A DNA stretch of 41,509 nucleotides, taken from assembly GCA_902760755.1 (NCBI GenBank), contig CACWHK010000014.1:1-41509 (forward strand), given 5' to 3'. The notes beneath the pieces are model-generated. The model was not told the origin of the DNA. It saw nothing but the letters and a program-made list of their open reading frames with translations, and ran no database searches. This stretch comes from an uncultured Lachnospiraceae bacterium. GTDB taxonomy: Bacteria > Bacillota > Clostridia > Lachnospirales > Lachnospiraceae. Positions 4,386 through 38,123 of this stretch are shown one piece after another (within the stretch, counting starts at the first letter, position 1; each line of letters opens with the position of its first letter). Made by a program: the position numbers and the translations under genes.

Positions 4386-6368
4386 CTATAGTTGAAAGCT
4401 GAGCCACAGGACGTTCTTTCCGTCCTTATACTCATAGCGATAATCGTCCGCCAGCGTAAATGTAAGGAAGCGTCCGAGTCCTCCGACCGCCTTGTCGTAG
4501 TCGTACTCATCCAGTTCCACCACATCCTTCGATGGATCGAAGGGACGTCCCGAATCCGTAAATGTAAGCTCTGCCGTATCCTTAAGAGCGATCCGGACCT
4601 CAACCTCTCCGCCCTGCTCGTACGCATAGGCGCAGACGTTAATAAACATTTCCTCTGCCACAAGGTAGAGTTTCTTCTGCATATCCTCATCCACGGGAAG
4701 CGCCAGGATCGCATCCTTCACCTTCGGAAGCTCCTTTGCATCCGCAGGAAGTAAAAGCACCGTTTCCTTCGGATCCGCATCTGCAGGGATGTCCAGCACC
4801 TTCAGCGTAAGCATGGTGATATCATCACTCTGCTCCGCGCCCTCCGTGTACTGATGAAGATCCGACGCGATCTCCTCCAGCGGACTTGCTTCATCCGCAC
4901 CAAGACACTTAGACAATTTCTCCTCCAGACGTTCATTTGTATAAAGCTTTCCGTCGGCGCTGACTGCCTCATTGACGCCGTCCGTATAGAGGAAGACCAC
5001 ATCTCCCTTCTTCAGGCGCACCACGGTCTCCTCGTAATCCTCTCCCGGGAAGAGCCCCGCTGCCATACAGCGTGCGCCGTCCAGCTGTGTCAGCTCATCC
5101 GAAAGAACATAGGGGATGTTATGACCGCCGTTGGAGTAGGTAAGCTCCTGCGTCTTTGGATCATACACCGCCACAAATGTGGTGATAAAGAGGCCTCCCG
5201 GATTGTTCTCCGAGAGCGTATCATTATACTGCTTCAGGATCTCCGCCGGGGAGTATCCCATTTTCGCATAAAGATGAAGCAGCGTTACGGCGCGGGACAT
5301 AAAGAGAGCTGCCGTGATCCCCTTGCCGGACACATCCGCCACTGCAAGGAAGACGCGTCCGTCCTCCAGGATCTGATAGTCGTAGAGGTCCCCGCCCACA
5401 TCTCTTGCCGGGTGCATCCTGGCATCGATCCGGACATAATCCCGCTCCTGATGGGGCTTTCCTAAAAGACCCAGCTGAATATCTCCTGCGATATCCAGTT
5501 CCGCCTGCCTGGTTGCCTTTTCGTGATTCAGCTTCTGGATGCTGTCCACATAGGTATGGATATTCTCCGCCATGGTATTGAAGGAGCGGGACATTTCCGC
5601 GAACTCATCCTCTCCCTTCACGGGAAGGGGCTGGATCCCACGCTCATAGTCCTCCACAAAACGGCTCATCCGATGGCTGATCATACGGGCCGGCCGCGAG
5701 ATCTTCCGGTACAGGATCACTGCCACTGCCAGAACGATGGATACGGATAGTCCGACCAGCAGCACGGTCATGATGTTGAAGGAGCTCCGCAGCTCCTCCA
5801 TCACGCTGGAGAGGGAAACATCCACACCGATCACGACGGGATTCTCATCCACATCGATCAGTTTTCCTGATTCTTTATCGTAACGCTTCCAGATTCCCAG
5901 ATAATAGATCAGCGTATCTCCGTAGCTGTTCTTCACATGCTGTACGGCGTGATCCGCCCGCTTCTCATACACGTCCAGCAGCTCCTCCGAGAGCTTCAGA
6001 TGCTCAACATATCCGGGAGCCAGTGTATCTCTTCCTTTCTGCGTTGCTTCCTTGCCGAACCCGATGGCTATATACTTGATAGACGAGCTTTGCTTATCCA
6101 CTTCGAAGGCATAAATGTAGGGCAGATCCAGATGCTCACAGTACAGTGTCATGGACGTGCTTATGGCGTCCGTTGAAATCACGGATGACTGCACTACAAA
6201 TTCCATCAGATCCACCATCATGTTCGCGGCGTTCTCCGCCCGATTCACGCAGGCATTATAGCTGCGGTTATAAGCAAGCCTGTAAGACACAGCAAGTAGT
6301 GCTGCATCAAAGAGCAGCACTACCAGCAGGATGATCAGAGTGATCTTCCGAAAGATAGATTTTTTCAT
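4386..6368 (-). CDS. Membrane SpoIIE/RsbU-type phosphatase fused to RsbW-like ATPase domain
   Basis: 660 residues. Membrane segment about 8-28, extracytoplasmic sensor-like region about 30-195, second membrane segment about 198-220, HAMP-like linker about 220-275, then a PP2C/SpoIIE phosphatase domain about 300-525. Metal-binding stretches are DVGGDLYDY, ADVSGKG, YTDGVNEA and SDDITML. The C-terminal domain (about 545-655) is a GHKL ATPase of the anti-sigma serine-kinase type, with N-box AEEMFINVCAYAY, G1 motif TDSGRPFDP and a GGLGRFL lid. Thus phosphatase and antagonist-kinase activities of a partner-switching system sit in one membrane protein. It starts 4 bases after the STAS gene stop, so the two are a matched pair. 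The expected chemistry is reversible phosphorylation of a serine on the STAS protein. The external signal is unknown. Confidence 0.9.
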   Translation of the reverse strand: MKKSIFRKITLIILLVVLLFDAALLAVSYRLAYNRSYNACVNRAENAANMMVDLMEFVVQSSVISTDAISTSMTLYCEHLDLPYIYAFEVDKQSSSIKYIAIGFGKEATQKGRDTLAPGYVEHLKLSEELLDVYEKRADHAVQHVKNSYGDTLIYYLGIWKRYDKESGKLIDVDENPVVIGVDVSLSSVMEELRSSFNIMTVLLVGLSVSIVLAVAVILYRKISRPARMISHRMSRFVEDYERGIQPLPVKGEDEFAEMSRSFNTMAENIHTYVDSIQKLNHEKATRQAELDIAGDIQLGLLGKPHQERDYVRIDARMHPARDVGGDLYDYQILEDGRVFLAVADVSGKGITAALFMSRAVTLLHLYAKMGYSPAEILKQYNDTLSENNPGGLFITTFVAVYDPKTQELTYSNGGHNIPYVLSDELTQLDGARCMAAGLFPGEDYEETVVRLKKGDVVFLYTDGVNEAVSADGKLYTNERLEEKLSKCLGADEASPLEEIASDLHQYTEGAEQSDDITMLTLKVLDIPADADPKETVLLLPADAKELPKVKDAILALPVDEDMQKKLYLVAEEMFINVCAYAYEQGGEVEVRIALKDTAELTFTDSGRPFDPSKDVVELDEYDYDKAVGGLGRFLTFTLADDYRYEYKDGKNVLWLSFQL

Positions 6369-6372
6369 ACAA

Positions 6373-6675
6373 TTATTCTTTCTCGATATTCAGCTTCTTA
6401 TCGAAACCGGTGAGACTGATGATATCTGTCACATTTCTGTTCAGATTGCGAAGATACAGTCCGCCCTTTCCTTCCATCTCTCTATGTGCACCAACGATCA
6501 CGCGGAGACCTGCAGAAGAGATATAGTCCACACCTGCCAGGTCGAGGACCAGCTTCTCGCACTCATCCACATATGCATTGATGGACTGCTCCAGCTCAGA
6601 TGCATTGGATGAATCAACCCATCCCTCAGGGAACAGGATGCAGGTATCCCCGGTCTTTGACACTTCGATCTTCAT
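6373..6675 (-). CDS. STAS-domain anti-sigma factor antagonist (RsbV/SpoIIAA-like)
   Basis: A 100-residue single STAS domain beginning MKIEVSKTGDT. The core LVLDLAGVDYISSAGLRVI carries the conserved DxxxISSAGL switch; its serines are the expected phosphorylation sites. The first in-frame GTG lies 18 bases further upstream, but AAGGAGG is placed 7-8 bases before the ATG at 6675, which decides the start. It is the first gene of an operon continuing into the phosphatase/ATPase fusion. In the family such proteins bind an RsbW-type kinase when unphosphorylated and so free its partner. No sigma factor gene is present in this window, so the output could be something other than sigma release. Confidence 0.9.
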   Translation of the reverse strand: MKIEVSKTGDTCILFPEGWVDSSNASELEQSINAYVDECEKLVLDLAGVDYISSAGLRVIVGAHREMEGKGGLYLRNLNRNVTDIISLTGFDKKLNIEKE

Positions 6676-6780
6676 AGTTTCGTCCTCCTTCACTTTTACT
6701 CTGCGCGGAAGAAATCCAGTCCTTCCAGTGCGCGGAATGCATTGATCAGATATAGTTGTTAGTGAAAATAACTCTAAATA

Positions 6781-10453: not shown

Positions 10454-10497
10454 AACACCCTCTCATCAGAACCAAAAAACACTCAGTATCCTTCCCG

Positions 10498-10503: not shown

Positions 10504-10513
10504 CCATAAACTA

Positions 10514-10542: not shown

Positions 10543-10585
10543 ATATACGTCGACGATCAACGACGTTCTATAGGGGGTACAATCT

Positions 10586-13166: not shown

Positions 13167-16100
13167 CTAAATCTTGTTGAAGAACTCCAGCGTATCCACA
13201 GCCTCGATCACCTTCTCCAGGTACGCATCATCGATGATAGGCCACTTGAAGTCCAGACGGTACAGGGCGTTGGTGGTAAAGAAGTTGTCGCTTCCCACCT
13301 GGATGATCCGCTCTCCGCCTCTCTCGTCGTAAGCCATCAGGGACATGATGGTCTCGCTCTCCGCTTCGTCCGTCATGGCTTCCTGCATGATACCGCGGAA
13401 CTCATTCTCGGTCACGATATTGATATTAAAGCCGTGGCGCTTCAGGGCGAAAATGATGTCCGCCTGAGTTACGGTGTGGTTGTTGTTGATGTTAAAGACA
13501 CTGAACTTCTTATTCACGCCCGCCAGCTTCATTACCACGGCTGCAGTTGCATCAATGGGTGAAAACTCCACCGTCTGCGCCAGCGCCGTAATGGGGCATG
13601 CACTCAGCTGGTTAAATGCCGCAAGGGACCGCATGAATGCATTCGTATTGAAGTTGATCTGGAACTCACCGTCGGTGTATCGTCCCATCAGATTTCCGGC
13701 ACGGAGGATGACCGCATCCAGTCCCTTCTCCACCCGGGCCTCCAGGATTGCCCGCTCCGCAAGGAACTTGGTGCGCGCATAATCATTGTCCACATACTGC
13801 CCGAAGTAGAGGGTATTCTCGTATACGGTTCCCGCCTGCTCCGCTTCCATGCTGCCTCCCACGGAAAGCGTGGAAACATGCACGAGACGCATATCATTTC
13901 GAAGGCAGACCTCGATCAGGTTCTCAACACCATGGAAATTGATCCGGTCCAGGATATCATCCTTTACGAAATGCTTTACGCAGGCCGCACAGTTGATGAT
14001 CATATCCGCCTTCACGGCATCGATCTGCTGCAGGGATTCCCTATCCGTAATATCTCCCTCGAGACAGAAGATCCGCTTGCCGAAGAGATCGATGCACGGA
14101 TTTCCATAATAGTACATGAGCAGGTTCTTCAGACGGTCCTCTACGGTCTCCGACTGTCCCTTCCGCATGAGGCAGGTGATCCTGCCGTCGGTCTGATCCA
14201 GGAACTCCTTCAGCACATGAATGCCCAGGAAGCCCGTGGCTCCGGCCAGCACCACATCTCCGACGGGTTCTGCCGAGATCTCCTCGATATTCTCCATGGA
14301 ATTGTAGGCGATCAGCTTGTCGATCTCCGTGTAGTCATAATTTGCCGCCTCCTCCGAGCGTCCCGCCAGGCTGCTGCCCGCGATCACCGCTGCCAGCTTC
14401 CGCGGCGTCGGATTGTCAAAGATGTCCTTGTAAACAATCTGATAGCCCTTTCCGACGGCAAAGGTAAGAACGCTGGCGGCAGTGATGGAGCTTCCGCCGA
14501 TCTCAAAGAAATCGTCCGTTGCGCCCACCTTCTCCAGTCCCAGGATCTTTGCAAATTCGTCGCAGATTTCCTTCTCGATGGGAGTTACCGGCGCGATATA
14601 TTCGCTCTGTATATCCCGCTTCTCCGGGATCGGAAGCATCCGCTTATTCACCTTCTGATTCTGGTTCAGCGGAATCTCGTCGATCTGCATAAATGCGGCA
14701 GGCACCATGTAGGACGGCTTCTTACTCTTGATGAACTCCACCAGCTTCTCCTGGTCCACCGGGGTATCCGATACCAGATACGCCGCGATGAACTTTCCGC
14801 TGCCGGAAGCCTCGTCAAAGGCCTGAACCGTAGCGTCCTTAATGCCTTCGAACTGGCGGATCACACCCTCCACCTCAGAAAGCTCGATCCGGAAGCCCCG
14901 GATCTTCACCTGTCCGTCATTTCGACCGATGATGTCGATGGCTCCGTCCGGCAATCTCCGCACAATATCTCCGGTACGGTACACCCGGTCGTACCCCGGT
15001 TCCTGCGTGAAGGGATTCGGGATAAACGCCTTCTCCGTCTGCTCCGGCAGGTTCAGATATCCGCGTCCCACACCGCGTCCTGCGATCCAGAGCTCGCCGA
15101 GAGCACCTACCGGAAGCTCTCTTCCATCCTTCCCCGTCACGTAGGTTCTGTAATTGTAAAGCGGCTGTCCGATGGGAACACGCAGCGCATTTTCCTCCAG
15201 ATGGTGCACCGTGGTGAAAATGGTACACTCCGTCGGCCCGTAACAGTTGTAGAACCGGAAGGTTCCTTCCGGCCGGAAGGGAACCAGCTTCTCGCCTCCG
15301 CCCATCAGATACTTCAGATGATTCTCCGGGATATTCGTTGCGAACATCCGCGCCATCTGTGTCGTCATAAACACATGGGTCACATGGTTCTTCTCATAGT
15401 ATTCATTCAACTCCGGAAGGTTGATGCGCATATCCTCGGGAACGATACAGAGGGTTGCTCCGCCGGTCAGTGCCGGGTACATATCCATCATGCAGGCATC
15501 AAAGCCAAAGCTTGCATATGCCGCAACCGTGGAATCCTGATCCAGTTCAAATGCATCCGCATACCATGTACAGAAATTCACAAGGTTTCCGTGGGTCAGC
15601 ATCACACCCTTCGGCCGGCCTGTGGTTCCGGAGGTATAAAGCAGGATGAAGAGTGACTCCGGTGTAAGCCCGGTCGGTGCCGGCTTCTTCTCCGGAAGCT
15701 TCGCGATCTCACTGGTAAGAAGCACCTCTCCCGCAAAGTCCGGGATCACGTCCGTAAGCGTGTCATCCACGATCATAGCCTTTGCTCCGGCATCCTGTAC
15801 CATAAATGCCAGTCGTTCCGGCGGATACGTGGGATCCAGAGGCTGATAGGCTGCACCCGACTTCAGGACACCGAGGGCCGTAACGGGCATGTATTCACTT
15901 CTCGGAATAAGGATGGAAACCGCATCCTCCGCATGGATCCCCTTCTCCTGCAGGCAGGCTGCCACACGGTCGGTGATCTCATCCAGTTCCCTGTACGTAT
16001 ATCTTGTATCTTCAAAGATCACGGCACATTTCTCCGGATCCTTTGAAGCAGCTCTCCGGAACAGTGTTACGATATCCGTATCCTCCACCGGATGCTCCGT

Positions 16101-19100
16101 CTCGTTGAAGCGATCCAGCTGCTCCTGCTCCTCCTTGCTGACAAGGGAGATATCTCCCAGCTTCTCATCCCGAAGCAGCGCTTCAAATACTCGTGCAGTT
16201 CCTTCCAGAAGCGCCCGGATACTCCACTCCTCATAATGCTTTGAATCAAACTCGCAGGCGATCTCGAAGGCGTCACCATTTTCAAAAATGTTGATGGTAA
16301 GCGTTGCCTTCACCGTATCCAGCTCCAGCTGTATATTCTCTGCCTTCTTACCGCCCACCGAGAGATAAGTCCCCAGCTGTCCCTGATAAACAAAGAGGAT
16401 ATTTGCCTTCACATCAAACTGTCTGGAGATCTCCGCAAAGGAGTAGATATCATGGGACATGCTGTCCATCAGCTGCTGTCCGATCTGCTTTGCATAGGCG
16501 ATACCCGTTGCTTCCCGGTCTGTCCGGATCACCACCGGAAGGGTATGCACGAACATACCGATACTGTCTGCAAGACGCGTATCATTTCTGCCGTTATATA
16601 CCGTGGTGTAGACACAGTCATCCCTGTACAGGAAGTGGGAAAGGGCCAGTCCGAAGGCCGCATTCCAGAGGGCGTTCATCGTAAGACTGCCGTCCCTTTG
16701 CGCATCCAGCACCAGCTGCTTCTCTGGTTCCACATCCACGAAACAGTACCCGATCTCTACGGATTCCTGATCCCGGTCGTAGACCGGAAGACAATCCGTA
16801 TCGATTCCTCCAAGCAGCTTCGTATAATAATCCTTTGCCTTCTCGTACTGATCACTCTTACGAAGCCGGTCCTCCAGAAGCGCTGCCTCATAGCCTGTGA
16901 AGTTCTCCTTCTGCAGCGCAACCCCAGCATAGGCGAAGTTGATATCCCGCATCAGAATCCGCATGGATTCACCGTCCACCACGATATGATGTCCGTCCAT
17001 GAAAAGATACCGGTTCTCTCCGTCATAAACGATGGAGATACGGAAGAGGCTCTCCCCGAGACGACGGAAGGGATAAACCAGGCTTGAGAAGCCGTGCTCC
17101 AGATTCGAAAACTCTATTTCGGTAATCTCCAGAACCGAATCGTCCCTTCGAAGCGCCATCACCTGACCGCTTGCATCTGCAGAAAGCTGCATCTTCATGT
17201 AAGGATGCGCATCTACGGTGGCAAGGATTGCCTGCTTCAGCCGGTCGATATCCAGCTCCGGATCCAGCTTCAGCAGTGTCGGAGAATTGTACATGGTTGT
17301 ATTGGGGTTGGCCATGCATTCCACATAGACACCCTGCTGAACCGAGGAAAGCGGATAGGAGCTCTGCAGCTCGTAGGTCTCCTCCTCCCCCTCGGTGTAA
17401 ACATATTCCGTGATCTTCCGGATGGTTCCGTATTCCTTAAGATCAGAGAGCTTGAAGCTCTTCCCGAACTCCCTGGAAATGAGCGCACTAAGGCGCATGG
17501 CTGCGATGGAGGTAAGTCCTTCTCTTTGCAGCTCCGAGGTAACTCCCACGGTTCTGCCGGAAAGCACCTCCTTCACCAGATCACTTACCTTCTGTTCTCT
17601 TTCATCCGCAGGAGCCACATAGTCCTCATCCTTAAAGACAGGCATGGCGCGGAGGGCCTTCCGGTCCACCTTACCGCCCGGAGTGATGGGCATGGCATCC
17701 ATCTGCATGTAAAATGTGGGAACCATATATTCCGTAAGGCTCTCTGCCAGACGACCGCGCAGGGCCTCGGTGTCGATCTCCCGATCTGCCGTGAAGAACA
17801 GTACCAGCTGCTCGGAGCAGATCTCCGCAACCGCATCCGAGATGCCCGGATACCGGCTGGCAACAGCCTCGATCTCCCCCAGCTCGATCCGGAAGCCCCG
17901 GAGCTTCACCTGGGTATCGATCCGGCCGAAATACTCCAGCTCGCCATCCTCGTTGTATCTTGCAAGATCGCCGGTGCGGTACATTTTCATATCCAGCTCT
18001 TCCAGGAAGGTGCAGGGAACGAACCGCTCATCCGTAATATCCTGTCTTCTCCAGTAGCCCTCCGCGATCTGCGGACCTGCCAGGCAGAGCTCGCCTGCAC
18101 ATCCCCGGGGCATCAGGTTTCCGTAGGCATCACAGATCAGCGACCAGGTATTCGGTACCGGCCGTCCTATGGGGATATTCTCCACCTCCTGATCCTTCTT
18201 CATATCCACGATATGATAGGAGGAAGCCACGGTAAACTCCGTGGGTCCGTATCCGTTCACAAACTGAATCTTCGTCTCCGGAACGTAGGACATCTTCTCG
18301 CCACCCACCATGATATACCGGAAGGGCATATCCGGATACTGGCTGACAAGGGCCATACCAATCTGCGTGGGCATGGTCATGCCGTTCACCTGATTCAGTA
18401 CAAAGTAATCCCGCATGCCTTCCAGATCCTTCCGGAGCTCCTCCGAAAGAATATGGATCTCCCCGCCGGCAGCAAGGGGCGGGATCAGGTCATTTACGGA
18501 AGCATCGAAAGAGAAGCTTGCCTGAACCGCATGGACGCTGTCCGGTCCCATCCGGAAATCCTTCAGCCACCACTCCGTAAGGGCACGTGCGGACCGGTGG
18601 GTCTGTACTACGCCCTTCGGCTTTCCGGTGGAGCCGGAGGTATAGATCATATAAGCACGGTGGGACGGTGTCGCACGGTTCACATGCTCTGCCTCCGGAT
18701 ACTCCGAAAGCGCCTCCGCCACTGTCTCTTCGGTAAGAACCACCCGGGAACCCGAATCCGTCAGCATGTACTCGATCCGGTCCTCGGGATAATCCGGATC
18801 GATGGGAACATACGCCGCTCCTGCCTTCTGGATACCGATCATGGCCGCGGAGAATTCCTTAACACGGTGCATGCGGATGGCAACAAAGCTGTTCTCCTCC
18901 ACGCCCTTTGCAAGGAGGTAGGCAGCGATACGGTCCGATGCATGGTCCAGCTCCGCATAGGTATAGCTTCCCTTATAATCCGTAACTGCCCGCTTCTCCG
19001 GCGTCTTTGCCGCATTTGCAAGGAAGAGGTCCAGCCAGGTTTCCGTAGTATCGTAGATCAGGGTTCTGCCCTTCGAGATGTCCAGGATCTCTCTTATCTC

Positions 19101-22100
19101 TTCTTTGCTGACAAGGGCGATCTCCCGCACCGTCTCAGCCTTTGCAAGGCCTTCCGCCACCCGTATAAATGCGCCGGCAAAGCGCTCGATCTCCTCGTGG
19201 CCGTAGATCCGTCCGTCATACTCAAAGAGCAGGGTGTAGCCCTCTCCCTCGGGGTAGGCATTCACTGCGATGGGCATCTTCACCGTATCAAGTCGAAGCT
19301 GGATCTGCTCCGCCTTCGGCATGCCCTCGGGCACATCCGAGATCCCTCCCTGATATGCAAAGAGAATCTCCGCACGAAGGTCCGTACGCTCCACGATCTT
19401 CGTGTAGGGATAAAACTCCTTCGCAAAGGTTTCCTGCAGCTCCTTATGGAAGGCCTTCACATAGTCCTCTGCGGAAAGGTCCTTACTCTCCGGCCCTGCC
19501 ACCGGAAGGGTCCGTACGAACATGCCGAAGCAGGCCTGCAGGGCCGTGCCGGCAGAACGTCCGTTGCTTATGGTTGCATACATGGGCTTTTCTTCCCGTG
19601 TGATCCGCTTCAGCGCCTCCGCAAAGGCTGCGGAGAGGTAGCTGCCCGGTGTTACGCCGGTGCGTCTGCAGAACTCGTTGATGGGCTCTGCCTCTACGGC
19701 AAATGTGGCTATGCAGCTGGCCGGGCCCTCCGGCTTCTTCTCAGCGGGAAGGCTTCCCACTGCAGCCCCTGCCAGGAGCTGATCAAAGTACTCCTCCGCC
19801 GCGGCATATTCCGGACTTCCCATCAGTTCCTTCTCATACAGCGCATAGTCGTAGGCGGTTACCTGCTCCGGCTCCGGCACATTTCCTCCCAGGATCAGTC
19901 CCAGATCTCTGAAGAAGATATCTCCGGAGATTCCGTCAAATACGCTGTGGTGAATATCCGTGAAGAGCCATACCCGCTCTCCCAGGGTATAAAGACGGAT
20001 CCTGTACAGGCGGTCCGCCATAAGATCAAAGGGCACCACAAGACTCTGGAAGAAGCCCTCCTCCGGCTCTGCTTCCAGTGCGATCACCTCTACCTCCGCC
20101 GGCTCCCCGTCCTTTCTCCGGAGCATCACATCCCCGTCTGCGTACTCAAAGCCCGCCTTCAGAATGGGGTGCAGATCGATCAGGGTGCGAAGGGCATCCG
20201 CAAGAACTGCTGCATCCATCTTCGGAAGGACCGTTACGGATGGGATATTGTACTGTGTGGTGGAGGGATTCATCTGCCAGTCGATGAAGAGTCCCCGCTG
20301 GTTCTCCGTCACGGGATAGAGCTCCTGCTTCGGATACGCCGTGATCTCCTTCGACGCTGTCTCCTCCGGACGGTCGATCAGCGCTGCGATCTCCCGGATC
20401 ACCGGAGCTTTCATGATATCAGCCACGGAGACTCTTACACCGCATGCGCGGCTGATCTCCGCCGAAAACCGCATGGCCCCGATGGAAGAAAGTCCGTGCG
20501 CCACCAGGTCGGAAGTCACACTGACGGTATCTGTCCCGAGGATAGCAGCAGCGATCCCGGCCAGGGTCTTCTCCGTCTCCGTGGAGGCTTCCACGAAATC
20601 CTCCGAATCTGTGATCCGCGGCTCCGGCAGCTTCTTCCGGTCGATCTTTCCGTTGGGTGTCATGGGCATGTCATCCATTTGCAGGAAGACCGTGGGAACC
20701 ATATACTCTGCAAGGCTCTCCGCCAGAAATGCACGAAGCGCCGTTTCATCAACCTCTGCTCCGGAGGAATAGTACAGCACCAGCTGATCCTTCTTCACCT
20801 CTGCCGCTGCCAGCCGGATTCCCTCGAACCTGGAGGCCGTACTCTCGATCTCTCCCAGCTCGATCCGGAAGCCCCGCAGCTTCACCTGGGTGTCGATACG
20901 TCCCTGATACTCCAGGTCTCCCTCCTCATTGTAACGGGCCAGATCTCCCGTATGATAGATCCGCACCTCCTTGTCACCGATCCGTACGGTGGGGAACCGC
21001 TCCTCGGTAAGCTCCGGCCGGTTCCAGTAACCCTTTGCAAGCTGCGGTCCCGCAAGACAAAGCTCACCCGAGCAGCCCCGGGGAAGCAGTCTGCCGCAGG
21101 CATCCATGATAAAGCCAACGCAGTTATAGAGAGGACGACCGATGGGGATCACCCTGTAGTCCCGCTCCTTATCCAGCTCATAGTACGTAGCATCCACCGT
21201 GAACTCGGTGGGTCCGTAGGTGTTATAGACATGACCCCTTGCCTTCGGCACCATGGTCATGGCCTCACCGCCGATATTGAAGTAGTCCACATCCAGAGGC
21301 TCATCCGCTGCCAGCAGCTGCCCGAACTGGGTGGAATAGCTTCCGCCGTTGATGGCGTAGGTCTTCAGGAACTCCTTCATTTCCGAGATATCACGACGTG
21401 CAGACTCCGGTACGATGAATACGGTTCCGCTGACGGTAAGCGCCGGGAAGATATCCTCCACCGAAGCATCAAAGGCATAATTCGTGTGCAGCGCGATCCG
21501 GCTGTTCTCGGAAAGACTCCAGCGGTCCCGGATAAAATGTACAAAGTTCAGCAGAGCCTTATGCTGGATCATAACGCCCTTCGGCTTTCCGGTGGACCCG
21601 GAGGTATAGATCATATAAGCCAGATGCTCCGGCGTACACCGGGGAACGAACCTTTCAGCCGGAGGATCCATGGCAAGGATCTTCGCCACCTTCTCATCGG
21701 TGAGCAGCAGTCCCGCTGCAGAGTCCGAGAGCATGTACTGCACGCGCTCCTCCGGATATTCCAGGTCGATGGGCACGTAGGCAGCGCCGGCCTTGTGGAT
21801 ACCAAGCACCGTTGCAAAGTACTCCTTCACACGACCCATGCGGATCGCCAGGAAGCTGTTCTCCTCGATGCCCTCGGAGACAAGGTACGCTGCGATCTGA
21901 TCCGAAGCTCGGTCCAGCTCCGCATAGGTAAAGCTACCCTGCACATCCGTCACGGCTGCCTTGTCCGGCGTCCGTTCCAGGCTCTCGAAGAAAAGATCCA
22001 GCCAGGTTTTCTCCGGATCGTATGCATAGGTCTCCCCTCCGGAAAGCTCCAGAATCTCATGCTGCTCCTCCTCGGAAAGAAGGCTTAGCTCCGTCAGCCG

Positions 22101-24980
22101 TTCCTTGGTCATCATGTCCGAAAGCACCTGATCAAAGGTCTTTGCAAACCTGCGGATATACGCCTCACTGAAGCGGTTATCCTGATACTGTACATGGATC
22201 ACCAGGTTACCGTCCTGAGGATACATTTCCACGGAGAAGGCATCTCCCGTGGCAACAAAGGGAAGCTCCTCTCTTTGCAGCTGCAGCTTACTGTCCTTCG
22301 GAAGGGTCAGAAGATCCGTCTGCCATGCAAACTGAACCTCACTGCTGACTCCGGTTTCCTCTGCCAGCTCCGCGAAGGAGTAGATATCATTCGCCATGGC
22401 CCCGAGCAGCTGTTCCTTCAGATCCGACAGATACTCCTCCACGGACATATCCGACCGGGTGCGACAAAGCACGGGAAGGGTGGTTACGAACATGGAAACC
22501 GTCCCATGGGTCCGGGGATCCCGACGTCCGTTGTAAATGGTGGAGAAAAGCGCCTCCTTCTTCATGGTGTAGGAGGTAAGCACATAGCCGAAGGCCGCTG
22601 TGGTAAAGATATTCTCCGTTGTCTTATGGGTCTCGCAGAAAGATCTTAAGGCATCCGCGGACACACTGAGGGTGATATACTGATCCGCAAAGCCGATCTC
22701 CTTCTCCTTCCGGTCACCCTCCGGAAGGGACTCCGTATCGGCACCGCCGTACTGCGCCAGATACCAGGCCCTGGCATCCGTCCATGCGCTGCCGCGTCTT
22801 GCGCTCTGCTCTGCAGCTGCAGCGTCATATGCGGTCCAGCGCTCCGGTTCGATGGCTGCTCCGCCCAGAGCCCTCTCCAGCTCACCCACCATGATCTGCA
22901 TGGAGGTTCCGTCAAATACCAGATGATGGAAATCCATGAAAAGATACTTCGGTCCTTCCGTCTCGATCAGCTTCATGCGGAAGAGGCGTTCGTTCCGAAG
23001 GTCAAATGCCTGAACCAGGGACCCCTTCTTCTCCTGCAGCTCTGCCTCCGTCCTGGTCTCCCGGGTGCAGACCTCCTGCTCCGCATACGCGCTCTGATAC
23101 TGAATGGCAGGATTTCCCTCCTCATCGGAAACCACTGCTGCAAAGAGCCCCGGATGCGCCTTCACCATGGTTCCGAGAGCCTCCGCCATCCGGTCCGTAT
23201 CCGTATCCGCCGGAAGCTTAAAGAGCATGGGGTTGTTATAAACCGCCTCTCCCTCGTGGCGCTCACACTCCAGGAAGATACCCAGCTGGGACTGTGTAAG
23301 CGGACAGGGGCGGGTCAGGTTCTCTGCACTTCCTTCCTCTGCCTCTCCTTCACCCTGCTCCGCCAGATAAAGCTCTGCGATCTTCTGCGGAGTTCTTCCC
23401 CGGAAGATCTGATTGATGGTAATGCCCGGAAGGCCCGTGGCTGCCACCACCTCCATGGAGGTAACGGAGCTGCCTCCCATCCGGTAGAAATCCTCCGTCG
23501 CACTGAAGCGGTCCAGCTTAAGCACAGATGCCATGGCGTCCGCGATGGCGCGCTCCGTATCATTTGCGGGAGCGACATAGACACCCCGCTCCTCCACCGG
23601 CTTTTGCAGCATGCGCCGGCTGATCTTCCCCGTAGCCGTACGCGGCAGGGCATCCAGTTTGATAAAATGGGACGGGATCATATAGTAGGGCAGAACGTTC
23701 TCCAGCTTCTTACGAAGGTCCTCCGTATCCAGCTCCACATCATCCGCATAGTAGAGGCAGATGAAGGCATCCTCCCCCTCTCCGAAGCCGCGGACCACCA
23801 CCTGCTGCAGTCCGGACACACGGGAAACCGCTACCTCGATCTCCGCCGGCTCGATCCGGTTACCGCTGATCTTGATCATTTCATCGATTCTTCCCAGCAC
23901 CTCGTACTGCCCGTCCGGCAGACGGCGGGCCAGATCCCGGGTGTGCAATTCTCCGTTTACGAAGGCTTTGGCCGTTTCCTCCGGGCGGTTCAGATATCCG
24001 CGAACATAAGGATTCTCCACGCAAAGCTCTCCCGCCTCTCCAGGAGGAACCGGATTCCCGGCTTCATCCCGAAGGGTGATCTTCAGAGAGGTGAAAGGTC
24101 TTCCGATGGGCGCGATCTCATTTGGCTTATCCAGATGCCCCATGGTAATACAGAAAGCACTTTCACTCATGCAGTATCCGTTCATGATCTGCACCTCAGG
24201 ATCATCCGACCAGATGCCGTTGGCAGGCTCCGAACCGACGAAGATCTTCCGGAGTGTGGGGATATTTCGGAAGAGACGCAGGATCGAGGGTGCGCAGAAG
24301 GTAGCATCCACCTCATGCTCCACGAAGGCCTGATACAGGGCAGGCGGATTCTTCAGGATGCTGAAGGGCACCACGCTCATCCTCGCGCCTGCATCCAGTC
24401 CGCCGAGGAAATCGATGACGATAACGATAAAGTAAAGGGGTGCGATCAGACCGAAATTCTGAATGCCCGCAGCCGTACTGATCCCGTTCTCCTTAAAGCT
24501 GGAAACGATGACGTCCAGATTCCCGTATTCATGGAGAACGCCCTTCGGCTTTCCCGTGGTTCCGGAGGTGTAGACCGCAAATGCGGCGTCATGGAGATCC
24601 ACCTCCGCATAGCCGGACAGGGGTTCGCATGCAAGCACCTCCTCCCAGGCTGCCCGGTCCAGAACCAGCTTGCAGTCACAGTCCTTCTGAATAAACTCCA
24701 CGCGCTCCGCCGGGTAGTCCTCCTCCAGCAGAACGAAGGCTGCACCGGCCTTCCAGACGCCCAGCATGGCGATAAAGGGATCCACCCCGCGGGGCAGCAG
24801 GATATTCACGAAATCCTCCCGTCCGATCCCCTTCTCCTTAAGATAACGGCAGACCTTCCCTGACAGAAGATCCAGCTCCCGGAAGGTAACATCCCGTTCG
24901 TTTTCACCCATGGAAGAAAGGATCACCTTCTCCGGCTCCTTCTCAACATGCTCTCTGACCGTTCTGAAAATCTCCATCAT
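13167..24980 (-). CDS. Four-module nonribosomal peptide synthetase with terminal reductase
   Basis: 3937 residues, order A1-T1-C1-A2-T2-C2-A3-T3-C3-A4-T4-R. Adenylation cores YTSGTTGKPKG, YTSGSTGKPKG (twice) and YTSGTTGRPKG lie near residues 135, 1125, 2113 and 3118. Carrier serines are in GGSSVTS (503), HGLSSIG (1493), GLTSIA (2488) and GGSSITA (3495). All condensation sites are intact: HHLVFDG, HHSVFDG, HHIVVDG (near 687, 1677, 2663). The C-terminal Rossmann domain (GATGFLGIHV near 3575; YARTK near 3733) is a thioester reductase, so the chain should leave as an aldehyde or alcohol, or cyclise. By-eye codes: A2 DAEGNGTVDK, A3 DANMMGGVAK, A4 DAMVMGCIFK. A1 lacks the Asp that binds the amino group, hinting at a non-amino-acid starter. 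Of three possible ATGs (24995, 24980, 24977), GGAAGG favours 24980, giving an ATGA overlap with the MATE gene. No carrier-protein activating enzyme or MbtH gene is in the window. Confidence 0.95.
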   Translation of the reverse strand: MMEIFRTVREHVEKEPEKVILSSMGENERDVTFRELDLLSGKVCRYLKEKGIGREDFVNILLPRGVDPFIAMLGVWKAGAAFVLLEEDYPAERVEFIQKDCDCKLVLDRAAWEEVLACEPLSGYAEVDLHDAAFAVYTSGTTGKPKGVLHEYGNLDVIVSSFKENGISTAAGIQNFGLIAPLYFIVIVIDFLGGLDAGARMSVVPFSILKNPPALYQAFVEHEVDATFCAPSILRLFRNIPTLRKIFVGSEPANGIWSDDPEVQIMNGYCMSESAFCITMGHLDKPNEIAPIGRPFTSLKITLRDEAGNPVPPGEAGELCVENPYVRGYLNRPEETAKAFVNGELHTRDLARRLPDGQYEVLGRIDEMIKISGNRIEPAEIEVAVSRVSGLQQVVVRGFGEGEDAFICLYYADDVELDTEDLRKKLENVLPYYMIPSHFIKLDALPRTATGKISRRMLQKPVEERGVYVAPANDTERAIADAMASVLKLDRFSATEDFYRMGGSSVTSMEVVAATGLPGITINQIFRGRTPQKIAELYLAEQGEGEAEEGSAENLTRPCPLTQSQLGIFLECERHEGEAVYNNPMLFKLPADTDTDRMAEALGTMVKAHPGLFAAVVSDEEGNPAIQYQSAYAEQEVCTRETRTEAELQEKKGSLVQAFDLRNERLFRMKLIETEGPKYLFMDFHHLVFDGTSMQIMVGELERALGGAAIEPERWTAYDAAAAEQSARRGSAWTDARAWYLAQYGGADTESLPEGDRKEKEIGFADQYITLSVSADALRSFCETHKTTENIFTTAAFGYVLTSYTMKKEALFSTIYNGRRDPRTHGTVSMFVTTLPVLCRTRSDMSVEEYLSDLKEQLLGAMANDIYSFAELAEETGVSSEVQFAWQTDLLTLPKDSKLQLQREELPFVATGDAFSVEMYPQDGNLVIHVQYQDNRFSEAYIRRFAKTFDQVLSDMMTKERLTELSLLSEEEQHEILELSGGETYAYDPEKTWLDLFFESLERTPDKAAVTDVQGSFTYAELDRASDQIAAYLVSEGIEENSFLAIRMGRVKEYFATVLGIHKAGAAYVPIDLEYPEERVQYMLSDSAAGLLLTDEKVAKILAMDPPAERFVPRCTPEHLAYMIYTSGSTGKPKGVMIQHKALLNFVHFIRDRWSLSENSRIALHTNYAFDASVEDIFPALTVSGTVFIVPESARRDISEMKEFLKTYAINGGSYSTQFGQLLAADEPLDVDYFNIGGEAMTMVPKARGHVYNTYGPTEFTVDATYYELDKERDYRVIPIGRPLYNCVGFIMDACGRLLPRGCSGELCLAGPQLAKGYWNRPELTEERFPTVRIGDKEVRIYHTGDLARYNEEGDLEYQGRIDTQVKLRGFRIELGEIESTASRFEGIRLAAAEVKKDQLVLYYSSGAEVDETALRAFLAESLAEYMVPTVFLQMDDMPMTPNGKIDRKKLPEPRITDSEDFVEASTETEKTLAGIAAAILGTDTVSVTSDLVAHGLSSIGAMRFSAEISRACGVRVSVADIMKAPVIREIAALIDRPEETASKEITAYPKQELYPVTENQRGLFIDWQMNPSTTQYNIPSVTVLPKMDAAVLADALRTLIDLHPILKAGFEYADGDVMLRRKDGEPAEVEVIALEAEPEEGFFQSLVVPFDLMADRLYRIRLYTLGERVWLFTDIHHSVFDGISGDIFFRDLGLILGGNVPEPEQVTAYDYALYEKELMGSPEYAAAEEYFDQLLAGAAVGSLPAEKKPEGPASCIATFAVEAEPINEFCRRTGVTPGSYLSAAFAEALKRITREEKPMYATISNGRSAGTALQACFGMFVRTLPVAGPESKDLSAEDYVKAFHKELQETFAKEFYPYTKIVERTDLRAEILFAYQGGISDVPEGMPKAEQIQLRLDTVKMPIAVNAYPEGEGYTLLFEYDGRIYGHEEIERFAGAFIRVAEGLAKAETVREIALVSKEEIREILDISKGRTLIYDTTETWLDLFLANAAKTPEKRAVTDYKGSYTYAELDHASDRIAAYLLAKGVEENSFVAIRMHRVKEFSAAMIGIQKAGAAYVPIDPDYPEDRIEYMLTDSGSRVVLTEETVAEALSEYPEAEHVNRATPSHRAYMIYTSGSTGKPKGVVQTHRSARALTEWWLKDFRMGPDSVHAVQASFSFDASVNDLIPPLAAGGEIHILSEELRKDLEGMRDYFVLNQVNGMTMPTQIGMALVSQYPDMPFRYIMVGGEKMSYVPETKIQFVNGYGPTEFTVASSYHIVDMKKDQEVENIPIGRPVPNTWSLICDAYGNLMPRGCAGELCLAGPQIAEGYWRRQDITDERFVPCTFLEELDMKMYRTGDLARYNEDGELEYFGRIDTQVKLRGFRIELGEIEAVASRYPGISDAVAEICSEQLVLFFTADREIDTEALRGRLAESLTEYMVPTFYMQMDAMPITPGGKVDRKALRAMPVFKDEDYVAPADEREQKVSDLVKEVLSGRTVGVTSELQREGLTSIAAMRLSALISREFGKSFKLSDLKEYGTIRKITEYVYTEGEEETYELQSSYPLSSVQQGVYVECMANPNTTMYNSPTLLKLDPELDIDRLKQAILATVDAHPYMKMQLSADASGQVMALRRDDSVLEITEIEFSNLEHGFSSLVYPFRRLGESLFRISIVYDGENRYLFMDGHHIVVDGESMRILMRDINFAYAGVALQKENFTGYEAALLEDRLRKSDQYEKAKDYYTKLLGGIDTDCLPVYDRDQESVEIGYCFVDVEPEKQLVLDAQRDGSLTMNALWNAAFGLALSHFLYRDDCVYTTVYNGRNDTRLADSIGMFVHTLPVVIRTDREATGIAYAKQIGQQLMDSMSHDIYSFAEISRQFDVKANILFVYQGQLGTYLSVGGKKAENIQLELDTVKATLTINIFENGDAFEIACEFDSKHYEEWSIRALLEGTARVFEALLRDEKLGDISLVSKEEQEQLDRFNETEHPVEDTDIVTLFRRAASKDPEKCAVIFEDTRYTYRELDEITDRVAACLQEKGIHAEDAVSILIPRSEYMPVTALGVLKSGAAYQPLDPTYPPERLAFMVQDAGAKAMIVDDTLTDVIPDFAGEVLLTSEIAKLPEKKPAPTGLTPESLFILLYTSGTTGRPKGVMLTHGNLVNFCTWYADAFELDQDSTVAAYASFGFDACMMDMYPALTGGATLCIVPEDMRINLPELNEYYEKNHVTHVFMTTQMARMFATNIPENHLKYLMGGGEKLVPFRPEGTFRFYNCYGPTECTIFTTVHHLEENALRVPIGQPLYNYRTYVTGKDGRELPVGALGELWIAGRGVGRGYLNLPEQTEKAFIPNPFTQEPGYDRVYRTGDIVRRLPDGAIDIIGRNDGQVKIRGFRIELSEVEGVIRQFEGIKDATVQAFDEASGSGKFIAAYLVSDTPVDQEKLVEFIKSKKPSYMVPAAFMQIDEIPLNQNQKVNKRMLPIPEKRDIQSEYIAPVTPIEKEICDEFAKILGLEKVGATDDFFEIGGSSITAASVLTFAVGKGYQIVYKDIFDNPTPRKLAAVIAGSSLAGRSEEAANYDYTEIDKLIAYNSMENIEEISAEPVGDVVLAGATGFLGIHVLKEFLDQTDGRITCLMRKGQSETVEDRLKNLLMYYYGNPCIDLFGKRIFCLEGDITDRESLQQIDAVKADMIINCAACVKHFVKDDILDRINFHGVENLIEVCLRNDMRLVHVSTLSVGGSMEAEQAGTVYENTLYFGQYVDNDYARTKFLAERAILEARVEKGLDAVILRAGNLMGRYTDGEFQINFNTNAFMRSLAAFNQLSACPITALAQTVEFSPIDATAAVVMKLAGVNKKFSVFNINNNHTVTQADIIFALKRHGFNINIVTENEFRGIMQEAMTDEAESETIMSLMAYDERGGERIIQVGSDNFFTTNALYRLDFKWPIIDDAYLEKVIEAVDTLEFFNKI

Positions 24981-26713
24981 ACTTCCTTCCCCCATTTCAT
25001 CGTTACGATATTCTGTCCGAATGAATAGCTGTAATCCGCATCATTCATGAACTCCTTCACTATGGTCAGTCCCGACCGTTCCCTGTCCGCTTCCACATGG
25101 ACCGGATCAAAGGGAACACCGTCATCCTTCACGAAGAGTGAAAGGCCTTCCGCATCCAGGATAAGACTGATGTCCATATAAGCCTTCTCCGACTTTCCGC
25201 TGTGCTGCGTATAGTTAAGCAGCAGCTCGTCGATACAGTGTGCAACTCCCATGATCCGCTCCTCGGAGCATTTCCCCTCCAGGAATTCTCTTACGGAGGA
25301 GATCACGCCCTCCGTCCTGTTTCTGTCGCAGGGAACGGAGAGGTCCAGTCGTTCTACCCCCTCCAGCCGCACGGGAATCAGATGGATGCGCCCTACACTA
25401 TTCCCTGCCTTCTTTCGCACCGGGATGGATATCAGCGGGATCAGCAGGATAGACAGCGCCGATCCGATGGGAAATGCGACCCATATATTTTTAATCACAT
25501 ACTTCGCGAGAATAAACCCAATGCCCAGATTGATCAGCAGGGACAGTGCCGAGATCATGGAGAGAACCGGATGCTCATTCAGCTGGAAGATGATCACCAT
25601 GGGCAGGATCACGCTCAGGGCGAAGTTGGTCATGGCGATCAGGGGCAGGCCCTGTCCCGTCATCTCGATCACCGCCGGATCCTTCGCTCCGAAGAGGGTG
25701 GCCAGGTGCTCCGCGATAAACCATACCGCCACATTGCAGAGCACGGCAAAGCCTATGGATATGGTAAGGCCCCGCCGAAGCAGTCTCCTGAGTCCGTCGT
25801 AGTCCCGCTGCCCCACCAGCATGCCTCCGATGCCCAGGAAGGCGCTCTCCACGCCGCCGGACACCATCTGTCCCAGGATCACGAGGGTAAGGCCTATGGA
25901 CATAACAAAAAGCCCCGTCTCTCCATGCACGGACTGAACGAAGAAATTGCACATGAAGATCATCAGCGTAAGCGCAAGGCTGCTGAGCATGGACGGGACT
26001 CCCATTTTCATATTTTCTCCAAGCATATGGCCAAAGCCCTTGAAATACGGGCGGATGCCCAGGGACCTCCTCTTCCGGAAGAGGAAAAAGAGGAACATAA
26101 ACGAAGCCACCAGATACCCGGTCAGGGTTGCCAGTGCCGCACCGCCGATATCCATGGAGAATACCTTAACATACAGGATATCACAGATTAAGTTTACGAC
26201 AACGGAGGTAAGCATGGAGACGGAAACCAGCTTCGGATAGCCGACCACCTCCACCAGACCTCCGGTTCCGTTCATGACGATCAGCAAAAATGCACCGCCG
26301 AGCATGACGGAGAGATACTTGTAGGTATTGTCATACAGGGCCGGATCCAGACAGAGCGCGGAGGTAAGGCCCGAAGAAAATGTAAGGGAAAGAAGGGAGA
26401 TCAGCACACCGAAGCCGAAGCAGGATACGATGGCCGTTGTAAGAGAGCTGCTGGCCTCGTCGAAATCCCGCCGGCCCAGGGCCTTCGCGATGATGATGGA
26501 GGCCCCGGCAGTAAGCAGCAGACTGATGCCTGCCAGAAGGCCCGTGACGGGCGATACATTTTGAATCGCCGACACAGCCTGTGGGCCGATCAGCTGTCCC
26601 ATCAGGATGCTGTCGACCACGTTATTGATGTTCACGATTGCCATGGTTGCGATGGACGCAAAGAGGAACCGTCCCAGACTTTTATTGATCAGATAACTGT
26701 TTCTGTCTTTCAT
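24977..26713 (-). CDS. MATE efflux transporter fused to an RsbW-like ATPase domain
   Basis: 578 residues; ordinary MATE proteins have about 450. Residues about 5-440 are a full MATE transporter (twelve hydrophobic segments; start region GRFLFASIATMAIVNINNVV). Residues about 455-575 are a GHKL ATPase domain of the anti-sigma-kinase type: N-box DELLLNYTQHS, with Glu, Asn and His at the family spacing; G1 motif KDDGVPFDP; then SGLTIVKEFMNDADY and a closing strand FGQNIVTMKW. The start at ATG 26713, preceded by GGGGGAG, is preferred over a longer frame. The stop codon overlaps the synthetase start (ATGA), so export and synthesis are coupled. The role as exporter of the peptide is inferred from this. 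The ATPase domain could bind or phosphorylate a STAS protein and gate the transporter. Confidence 0.9.
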   Translation of the reverse strand: MKDRNSYLINKSLGRFLFASIATMAIVNINNVVDSILMGQLIGPQAVSAIQNVSPVTGLLAGISLLLTAGASIIIAKALGRRDFDEASSSLTTAIVSCFGFGVLISLLSLTFSSGLTSALCLDPALYDNTYKYLSVMLGGAFLLIVMNGTGGLVEVVGYPKLVSVSMLTSVVVNLICDILYVKVFSMDIGGAALATLTGYLVASFMFLFFLFRKRRSLGIRPYFKGFGHMLGENMKMGVPSMLSSLALTLMIFMCNFFVQSVHGETGLFVMSIGLTLVILGQMVSGGVESAFLGIGGMLVGQRDYDGLRRLLRRGLTISIGFAVLCNVAVWFIAEHLATLFGAKDPAVIEMTGQGLPLIAMTNFALSVILPMVIIFQLNEHPVLSMISALSLLINLGIGFILAKYVIKNIWVAFPIGSALSILLIPLISIPVRKKAGNSVGRIHLIPVRLEGVERLDLSVPCDRNRTEGVISSVREFLEGKCSEERIMGVAHCIDELLLNYTQHSGKSEKAYMDISLILDAEGLSLFVKDDGVPFDPVHVEADRERSGLTIVKEFMNDADYSYSFGQNIVTMKWGKEV

Positions 26714-26731
26714 ACCTTCTCCCCCGGACAG

Positions 26732-26742
26732 ACCTGTCACCC
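26732..26742. repeat. Variant of the GGTGACAGG repeat before the MATE gene
   Basis: On the minus strand GGGTGACAGGT lies 18 bases before the MATE start codon, in the 89-base gap after the glycine-rich gene. It keeps the GGTGACAGG half of the dispersed repeat but not the GCACC half, so membership is uncertain. Confidence 0.4.
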
Positions 26743-26802: not shown

Positions 26803-27972
26803 TTAGAGATAGAAATCGTCGCGTGCGCCGAGATTAAGACCTCCCTCGTCCCCCAGACCGGAGGAGCTTCCCCCGCCGAGGCCGCTGCCATCGCGGTCCG
26901 CAAGGCTGAAGGATCCGCGAGAATCCAGCGCATCCCGGTTGCCGAGAGTCATGCCGTCATCCGAGCCGCCTCCGCCAAGAAGGCTCTCCCGTTCGCCCAC
27001 CTGAAAATCATCCGAAGTTCCGAGGCCCTGACGTACATTCTCGCTGGTCTTCGGCTTGTCGCTGCTACTGCCCGGGAAATCGATCCCCTTTGAGAGGTCG
27101 CTTCCGCCACTCGGGAAATCAATCCCCTTTGACAGGTCGCTGCCGGAGCCGGGCATGTTGATCCCGCCGGAACCCGGCATGTTGATCCCACTGCTGCCGG
27201 GCATATTGATCCCGCCGCTCAGAGGATTCTCGAAGTCATCCGCTTCCTGCCGCACCGGCAGTCCGAAGTAGGGACTTCCGGTCTCACCCTTCCGGTACGG
27301 ATCCATGGTGTGGAACAGCCGGTTCTCCCGGAGGTAATTGTTCAGCATGATGATATATTCCGTGAGACGTCTGATCTCATCGGGGCTCACTCCGCCGAAG
27401 GAGATATAGCAGTGTCCCAGCTCGCGGAAGGTATTTACAAGAAAGCGGGACATGCTGAGTCCGGAATTGATGGGACCCGAACCGCCGCTTTGCTCATCCT
27501 TCACGTAGTACTTCACGGATTCCGGTACCCGGTTCGGGAACTCCGGATCCATACTGTTCTCATTCCTCATCTGGAAAAACATCTGCGTGGTAAGATTCAG
27601 CCGCAGCATTCCATTTACCATGGCTACCTGCTGCACCGGATCTGCCTGCGAAGGATTGTGCAGGTATCCGAGAAATGTAAGATAATCCTTCCGAAGCTGA
27701 TCGTCGGGCCGGACCGCGCCCTCCTCCGGGCTCTCCAGACGGGATGACATTTCCAGGGCATAGCGAAGGGACTCTGCCACCGCATCTCCCAGCGCCATGG
27801 TCTGGGGGCCCACCGGCTCCGGCATGGAATTATCCACGCCCCGCATACCCAGAGTCCGCATGGTCGTTGCAGCCATCATGTTCTCCCGCTGCCGGCTGGC
27901 GATCGCGTCCTCCTCTGCCTTATCGACGATACCACCGATCCTCCCAAATAAACTCCTGTTCAACCTAGACAT
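26803..27972 (-). CDS. Unrecognised protein with glycine/serine-rich repeat tail
   Basis: 389 residues, no signal peptide or membrane segment, no family recognised. The N-terminal 250 residues look folded and mostly helical (MSRLNRSLFGRIGGIVDKAE, then SMSRFLVNTFRELGHCYISF). From about 250 the chain turns to short repeats: GINMPGS-type three times, GSDLSKGIDFP-type twice, then a long Gly/Ser/Asp-rich tail ending ARDDFYL. GGAGG touches an ATG at 27978 but is 6 bases from the ATG at 27972, so the latter is chosen. It has its own good promoter and no clear terminator before the MATE gene 89 bases on, so it probably heads the transporter-synthetase operon. It may be a scaffold, secretion or regulatory protein; nothing in the sequence decides. 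Confidence 0.8.
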   Translation of the reverse strand: MSRLNRSLFGRIGGIVDKAEEDAIASRQRENMMAATTMRTLGMRGVDNSMPEPVGPQTMALGDAVAESLRYALEMSSRLESPEEGAVRPDDQLRKDYLTFLGYLHNPSQADPVQQVAMVNGMLRLNLTTQMFFQMRNENSMDPEFPNRVPESVKYYVKDEQSGGSGPINSGLSMSRFLVNTFRELGHCYISFGGVSPDEIRRLTEYIIMLNNYLRENRLFHTMDPYRKGETGSPYFGLPVRQEADDFENPLSGGINMPGSSGINMPGSGGINMPGSGSDLSKGIDFPSGGSDLSKGIDFPGSSSDKPKTSENVRQGLGTSDDFQVGERESLLGGGGSDDGMTLGNRDALDSRGSFSLADRDGSGLGGGSSSGLGDEGGLNLGARDDFYL

Positions 27973-28015
27973 AACCATCCTCCAACATCATGTTTTTTGT
28001 TACAATACCATTTCT

Positions 28016-29289: not shown

Positions 29290-29318
29290 AGAGCTACCCC
29301 CTATCATTATGATTATTG

Positions 29319-29348
29319 ATTATACATTATTCGCCTGACTATCTGCAA
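29319..29348 (-). promoter_or_regulatory. Promoter of the 28117-29289 gene
   Basis: TATAAT (29319-29324) on the minus strand with TTGCAG (29343-29348) 18 bases upstream, the latter inside the 3' end of the preceding protease gene. The start codon follows 29 bases after the -10. Confidence 0.6.
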
Positions 29349-32068: not shown

Positions 32069-32085
32069 AGTTTCCCTCCTCTCCA

Positions 32086-32099
32086 GGTGCCTGTCACCG
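32086..32099. repeat. Copy of the GGTGACAGGCACC palindromic repeat
   Basis: On the minus strand CGGTGACAGGCACC lies in the 38-base gap between the GDSL hydrolase stop and the protease start, ending 17 bases before the ATG. Relative to transcription it runs opposite to the copies near 38.6, 39.0 and 40.4 kb. Confidence 0.75.
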
Positions 32100-32106
32100 T
32101 TTTGCG

Positions 32107-32739: not shown

Positions 32740-32751
32740 TTCCGTCCTCCT

Positions 32752-33879: not shown

Positions 33880-33915
33880 CTTCCCCCCCTAAAGAAAAAT
33901 CTGTGAACTCTTCCC

Positions 33916-34467: not shown

Positions 34468-34520
34468 GATTATCTGGCCCCTCTTTCCTACATTTCCGTA
34501 AGGGGGAACGCCCCCTACGC

Positions 34521-35330: not shown

Positions 35331-35422
35331 AGCTTGTACCCCTTTCTTTCCAAACTATCCCCGGGGCATCGCGCCCCATTGTTCACAAAAACTTCACCTT
35401 TTTATAGCACCTTTTATGTAAA

Positions 35423-36442: not shown

Positions 36443-36454
36443 TTCCGAACCTCA

Positions 36455-36712: not shown

Positions 36713-36752
36713 TTGTTTTCTCCTTTCCTCTGATAGGTGCCTTTGGGATTGA

Positions 36753-37990
<1,238 letters not shown>

Positions 37991-38012
37991 AAAGCGTCCC
38001 TTTCTTTTTATA

Positions 38013-38107: not shown

Positions 38108-38123
38108 TTTATTTATAAACAAT

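Follow-up and report, generated by a model that had tools for sequence, protein, structure and literature searches.

The closest described relatives of the system reported here are the partner switches RsbU/RsbV/RsbW and SpoIIE/SpoIIAA/SpoIIAB, in which a SpoIIE-type phosphatase, a STAS protein carrying the expected serine and an RsbW-like HATPase are combined. By family, RsbW and SpoIIAB belong to the anti-sigma factors. The same three parts are encoded in a 41,509-nucleotide stretch of DNA from an uncultured Lachnospiraceae bacterium (contig CACWHK010000014.1 of assembly GCA_902760755.1; this whole stretch is termed the window), together with a MATE transporter that ends in a HATPase-like tail and whose gene overlaps that of a nonribosomal peptide synthetase (NRPS). 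In contrast to the Rsb and SpoIIA systems, a HATPase-like domain is here fused to a transporter and mostly lacks the GxG of the lid/G2 region, and no sigma factor was matched by Pfam in the 20 open reading frames (ORFs) scanned of 72 candidates near partner-switch loci.

Three other systems bear on the comparison. In SiaABCD of Pseudomonas (PMC8457831), the target that SiaC binds, and thereby activates, is a diguanylate cyclase, SiaD, rather than a sigma factor; the likeness lies in a switch protein acting on a non-sigma client, although the client there is an enzyme whereas here an exporter is proposed. The partner-switch proteins BtrU/BtrV/BtrW of Bordetella influence a secretion process, BtrU and BtrW being said to affect secretion in passages of a review of STAS-only proteins (PMC8256260); a HATPase-transporter fusion is not described in those passages, and the words MATE and export are absent from the main text of the review. 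SulP/SLC26 transporters resemble the window protein in bearing one half of a STAS/HATPase pair, but it is the STAS domain that sits on the transporter there and the HATPase-like partner that does so here. Searches of one open-access collection gave no paper that looked to be on the MATE-HATPase_c_2 architecture or on a transporter as the client of an Rsb-type switch. All of the component families are known, but a transporter in the position of switch client was not found described there. We propose, at what we judge to be an even chance, that the cytoplasmic tail of the MATE exporter receives the output of such a switch. The features concerned are the following.

24977..26740, minus strand: MATE transporter with a C-terminal RsbW-like HATPase_c_2 tail, 587 amino acids (single ORF, Pfam, orthologues).
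24977..25405, minus strand: tail region, about residues 446-587, with N-box and G1 kept, a short lid and the G2 GxG missing (motif comparison).
13167..24995, minus strand: NRPS, 3942 amino acids, whose start overlaps the MATE stop as ATGA (Pfam, coding-strand reading).
6373..6693, minus strand: STAS protein, 106 amino acids, the proposed switch protein (Pfam, STAS tree, TM1442 alignment).
4386..6368, minus strand: HAMP-SpoIIE phosphatase-HATPase_c_2 protein, 660 amino acids, proposed as phosphatase and kinase of the STAS protein (Pfam).

An initial annotation, made from the sequence without database searches, had described a full MATE domain followed by a GHKL domain, next to a peptide synthetase, and this observation is confirmed. 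The MatE model is matched over two stretches at 6.6e-32 (110.9 bits, cut-off 24.9) and HATPase_c_2 over residues 475-583 at 4.9e-10 (39.9 bits, cut-off 27.4), while the N-box DELLLNYTQHS (E505, N509) and the G1 motif KDDGVPFDP (D539, G541) read as they had been quoted. Against this, the NCBIfam MATE models fall under their own cut-offs for the window protein (TIGR00797, 121.2 versus 147.4 bits), and it is therefore a divergent MATE. The span given earlier for the gene, 24977..26713, belongs to the same ORF, in which an in-frame ATG at 26713 is an alternative start; the ORF itself extends to 26740, and its strand, which had been left out, is minus. The coding strand at the junction reads GAAGTATGATGGAG, where the MATE stop TGA and the NRPS ATG share the letters ATGA as claimed; the ORF listing also holds an alternative NRPS ATG 15 bases upstream of the overlapping one.

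That a frameshift or misassembly fused two genes has next to no probability. Nothing was found in its favour. A scan of named genomes gave two relatives, L016 from Butyrivibrio sp. VCD2006 and L017 from Oribacterium sp. KHPX15, both of them full-length and 62% identical where they match best; these orthologues speak against such a fusion, as do 91 tailed proteins that align with one another. The reading of one continuous MATE-HATPase protein is thus borne out, and in both orthologous loci a long NRPS is the next gene after the MATE. When 397 genomes of the family were searched with the window protein (E 1e-30), 23 places in 18 genomes were matched; those other than the window itself are 23-29% identical to it, and 20 of these 22 extend into the last 20 residues, the exceptions being G334, which is cut by its contig, and G012, which reaches residue 475. 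Another three tailed MATEs are encoded in the genome from which the window comes, at C29:15090-16835 (L048), C4:40304-42022 (L057) and C7:108949-110694 (L062). A SpoIIE gene lies 1.4 kb from the tailed MATE of L048, and the contig of L057 carries NRPS-type ORFs and two ORFs of the STAS-APH type farther along.

Beyond the family, a profile of 23 tailed MATE proteins (A1) was run against 392 genomes of the order with three candidates scored per genome, and among the matches listed the ends fall mainly near model position ~580 (tailed) or near 440 (untailed). At E 1e-92, matches came from 25 of 371 genomes drawn across the class and from 6 of 378 drawn across the phylum, own genome included; the fusion is therefore centred on the class of the window and rarer beyond it. 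In a quick tree of the 91 tailed rows the window groups with L016 and L017 and then with L112, all of them NRPS-linked. The NRPS label changes 9 times on this tree against about 23 times when shuffled, so that the linkage is clustered yet has been gained or lost several times, and partner-switch genes occur near tailed MATEs in both of the halves into which the root, as drawn, divides the tree.

A single-sequence search of the window tail against PDB chains returned nothing up to E 1; a profile of 21 tail rows (A4) gave as its best matches RsbW (6m36) at 4.5e-07, SpoIIAB chains at 1.4e-06 to 1.7e-06 and then VraS at 5.2e-06. Motifs were counted in 91 tails and in 18 HATPases from the same loci that are not fused to a MATE, after three of 94 rows (L133 1631-3337, L145 13358-15025 and L147 8942-10645) had been dropped because they do not align as HATPase tails. 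The 18 unfused HATPases have every residue scored. The N-box glutamate is likewise present in all 91 tails, but the N-box asparagine is present in 61, the G1 aspartate in 72 and the G1 glycine in 49. As the G2 motif we counted a GxG anywhere in the 34 residues that follow G1, and 6 of the 91 tails have one, compared with all 18 of the other HATPases; the stricter GGxG is found at G2 in none of the 91, SpoIIAB itself having SGMG. The four residues E, N, D and G are kept together in 25 of the 91 tails, that of the window included: 20 of the 27 labelled NRPS-linked and 5 of the 64 others. From the G1 proline to the G2 glycine there are 10 residues in the window tail and 16-20 in the 18 other HATPases. 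Over the lid/G2 stretch SpoIIAB (ERSGMGFTIMENFMDE) and the window (ERSGLTIVKEFMND) are alike, the window being two residues short at the GxG, such that ERSGLTIV stands against ERSGMGFTI of SpoIIAB and neither a GxG nor a full ATP lid is present. A large subgroup, 42 of the 91 tails, lacks the G1 glycine, many members having a cysteine there (DNC or DDC); it includes the tails of L101-L104, L106-L108 and L110.

The tail thus resembles an RsbW-type fold whose lid is truncated, which would favour binding over catalysis. It has probably descended from an RsbW-like kinase with loss of most or all of the kinase activity, and in the window it may still bind ATP. Because the N-box glutamate is kept throughout while the GxG is kept in 6 of 91, we read the tail as a putative STAS receptor rather than a STAS kinase. 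The initial annotation had pointed instead to the tail as a working kinase of the RsbW type, which with ATP bound would bind the STAS protein and phosphorylate it. Such a kinase would fit the residues retained in the window and in most NRPS-linked tails, the profile kinship with RsbW and SpoIIAB and loci such as L052 and L045, in whose reach the only HATPase of this kind that turned up is the tail; it would have to work, however, with a shortened lid, and in a family in which 85 of 91 members lack the GxG that all unfused HATPases have, 30 have lost the N-box asparagine and several loci encode a separate HATPase besides the tail. This part of the earlier proposal is weakened, and we regard an active kinase tail as rather improbable.

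The genomic surroundings of tailed and untailed MATEs were compared among the matches listed in the order-wide search, over up to 9 kb on each side, by scanning neighbouring ORFs with models for which proteins of the window served as seeds. The 60 tailed MATEs are nearly all of the new tailed rows listed (G666:C413, cut by its contig, and G701:C20 were left out), and the 40 untailed ones were hand-picked, mostly away from contig ends; regions clipped at contig ends lower the tailed counts. STAS was found near 12 of the 60 tailed MATEs, SpoIIE near 16, a separate HATPase near 10 and a condensation domain near 8; each was found near none of the 40 untailed ones. At least one of STAS, SpoIIE and separate HATPase accompanies 19 of the 60 tailed MATEs and none of the 40 that have no tail (Fisher p 1.7e-05, an optimistic value because some of the tailed MATEs share a genus). 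In the family set of 22 places, which is biased to the window's kind because its members were selected by similarity to the window protein, NRPS domains (condensation or reductase, R) occur at 15, a partner-switch gene at 12 and both at 8. The order of the genes, read in the coding direction, varies: NRPS, tailed MATE, STAS, SpoIIE, HATPase in L105; SpoIIE-HATPase, STAS, NRPS, tailed MATE in L053; tailed MATE, NRPS, STAS, SpoIIE in L056; and STAS, HATPase, tailed MATE in L086. Genes for STAS, SpoIIE phosphatase and HATPase are all linked to the proposed client in several loci (L105, L053, L143 and L154).

Some further genes recur in these regions. STAS domains fused to an APH-type phosphotransferase lie near tailed MATEs in L054 (3087-4262), L119 (86-1258), L143 (11786-12979), L154 (4070-5590) and L060 (15726-17306, which adds a HATPase), and with similar ORFs of L214, L218 and L220 these fusions form one group of nine in the STAS tree (99/98). 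GH3-family enzymes, which form acyl amides, occur together with tailed MATEs and partner-switch genes in L122 (7477-9078), L140 (7415-9013) and L129 (6920-8677), and hits of a GH3 model fall in 7 of the 60 regions around tailed MATEs and in none of the 40 around untailed ones (p 0.04). An HD model is matched in 6 of 60 and 0 of 40, respectively. It is matched in all three of the loci L123, L125 and L136, where ORFs of 884-889 amino acids comprise a MATE and a HATPase tail (8132-10786, 8136-10790 and 8143-10812, respectively), the first of them with an HD-CE domain in addition.

Every part of a switch is present in the window, with the STAS and SpoIIE-HATPase pair 6.5 kb from the NRPS end. The STAS protein, which the initial annotation had picked as a possible partner of the tail, falls in a tree of 35 rows (L121 left out) into a group of eight whose seven other members all come from MATE/NRPS loci (L045, L052, L053, L055, L056, L212 and L214), and the six other STASs of its own genome that were included fall elsewhere. 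Its best identities are 43% (L053), 41% (L055) and 40% (L052). Ser60 aligns with the serine in D-S-A-G of TM1442, and a serine stands there in 35 of 36 STAS rows; we take this place to be the phosphorylated position, corresponding to Ser58 of SpoIIAA. Among the ORFs of the fetched loci, the SpoIIE-HATPase protein is closest to its counterpart in L053 (408 bits, 36% identity over 644 residues), the next match scoring 200 bits. In both close orthologues the STAS gene follows the presumed NRPS, by 61 bases in L212 and by 75 in L214, with about 2 kb in the middle of the NRPS unread. The STAS tree, the STAS identities and the SpoIIE-HATPase match support a tie between the window pair and the MATE/NRPS system. 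As a candidate STAS kinase, the HATPase domain that ends the 4386-6368 protein is better placed than the MATE tail.

The NRPS comprises four AMP-binding domains, three condensation domains and three PP-binding stretches, followed by a C-terminal reductase-type NAD_binding_4 domain. Its best NCBIfam match is the aureusimine synthetase AusA (residues 2395-3931), which it resembles in ending in a reductase-type domain and from which it differs in its four A domains and in a score, 1835.5 bits, below the cut-off of 2500. A search with the window R domain in the 397 genomes of the family gave 47 places in 42 genomes, adjacency being mostly deduced from coordinates and open-frame lengths. In 19 of the best 20 of these places (at least 240 bits, own included) a MATE adjoins: 14 of the MATE matches reach the tail, one is contig-cut (G334) and four, NRPS-adjacent ORFs of 567-572 amino acids, have an unaligned end (G135:C63, G080:C22, G079:C2 and G252, the last being L133 1631-3337, the one such tail that was read and one in which the motifs are lost). 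The remaining place is G233:C253, on a contig with no MATE match. Ten of the 20 places have a STAS gene on their contig, either adjacent to the NRPS or the MATE or at most ~11 kb away. Nine of the 27 weaker places were also examined: G269 has a tailed MATE, six have neither tailed MATE nor STAS, and in G258 and G114 a STAS gene lies directly upstream of the NRPS with no tailed MATE beside it. For the other 18, the family search with the window protein gave no MATE match in those genomes at E 1e-30. A reductase-ended synthetase, whose co-occurrence the initial annotation had put forward as a check, is a regular neighbour of tailed MATEs of the window's kind, though in the order-wide set an R domain is near 5 of 60 tailed and 1 of 40 untailed MATEs, a difference that is not significant.

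Several findings weigh against a MATE exporter controlled by this switch. As many as 41 of the 60 tailed MATEs have no partner-switch gene within reach, and two of the 19 positives rest solely on unusual STAS genes, the STAS-APH fusion of L119 and that of L121, which scores just under the Pfam cut-off. The window STAS gene is separated from the NRPS end by 6.5 kb that include a gene on the opposite strand, and is hence outside the MATE-NRPS operon; the gene that follows the NRPS is protease-like and on that opposite strand. The support of the STAS group (92/92) is below the star threshold of the tool, and NRPS-adjacent STASs from L041, L051, L105 and L143 fall outside it. The best relatives that the SpoIIE-HATPase protein has in the Butyrivibrio and Oribacterium genomes share 31-33% identity with it, and their contigs are not those that carry the MATE. 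The STAS protein at 6373 may serve something other than the MATE. The scarcity of partner-switch neighbours would also suit a tail with a role of its own, such as nucleotide sensing, folding or dimerization, that makes no contact with STAS, the neighbourhood reflecting a shared use of partner switches in biosynthetic clusters, as where an NRPS stands beside STAS in G258 and G114. Such an independent role seems to us quite doubtful: none of the 40 untailed MATEs has these neighbours, and the fold of the tail is that which binds STAS in RsbW and SpoIIAB.

In the arrangement that we favour, with the tail as a STAS receptor, the phosphorylation of the small STAS protein would be set by an RsbW-like kinase together with a SpoIIE phosphatase that acts as a sensor. 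The window STAS (6373-6693) would be phosphorylated by an RsbW-like HATPase proper, probably the domain at the C-terminus of the 4386-6368 protein, and dephosphorylated by the SpoIIE-type phosphatase part of that protein. In one of its phosphorylation states STAS would then attach to the tail of the MATE, and the exporter, whose cargo is probably the NRPS product, would thereby be opened, closed or positioned. Domain anatomy, recurrence, gene linkage and motif loss are direct observations; the binding of STAS to the tail, the direction of control, the cargo and the activating state are what we infer from them. The initial annotation had suggested that peptide export may be gated by a partner-switching protein. 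This is partly supported, in that it gains real support from genome context, namely the neighbours of tailed MATEs and the grouping of the STAS proteins, but its kinase component is doubtful.

The same gene-linkage data would also accommodate a flow in the reverse direction, in which the MATE senses flux or substrate and the tail holds or releases STAS or another regulator, so that expression follows export. The anti-sigma function of RsbW and SpoIIAB speaks for it; the lack of a sigma factor among the 20 ORFs scanned of 72 speaks against it, as does the sensor-like HAMP-SpoIIE part, which already supplies an input to the system. We consider reverse flow unlikely.

The remaining genes of the window include a SulP transporter with its own STAS domain (2699-4366), which adjoins the SpoIIE-HATPase gene and might be another client that the STAS/SpoIIE pair serves, and a stand-alone condensation-domain protein of 461 amino acids (32-1417), 12 kb beyond the NRPS end. 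Directly upstream of the MATE gene, 26803-27978 encodes a protein of 391 amino acids with repeats of the kinds GGINMPGSG and SDLSKGIDFP, for which Pfam and NCBIfam gave no match. Several surface-type proteins with choline-binding repeats are encoded at 28117-40458 and 10586-13108; two of the surface-type proteins have papain-like and lectin-like domains and one has BspA-type leucine-rich repeats.

More tentatively than the proposal for the window exporter itself, we suggest that these proteins represent a Clostridia-centred class of exporters gated after translation by partner switching, in which STAS would shuttle between an RsbW-like kinase and a kinase-derived receptor domain on the transporter, and a SpoIIE-type sensor phosphatase would switch the export of small natural products, made by NRPSs and perhaps by GH3-type enzymes, without a sigma factor. 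If this is true, it would mean post-translational on/off control of natural-product export in Clostridia, would assign a role to STAS and SpoIIE genes found next to biosynthetic ones, and would offer a handle for waking silent peptide clusters.

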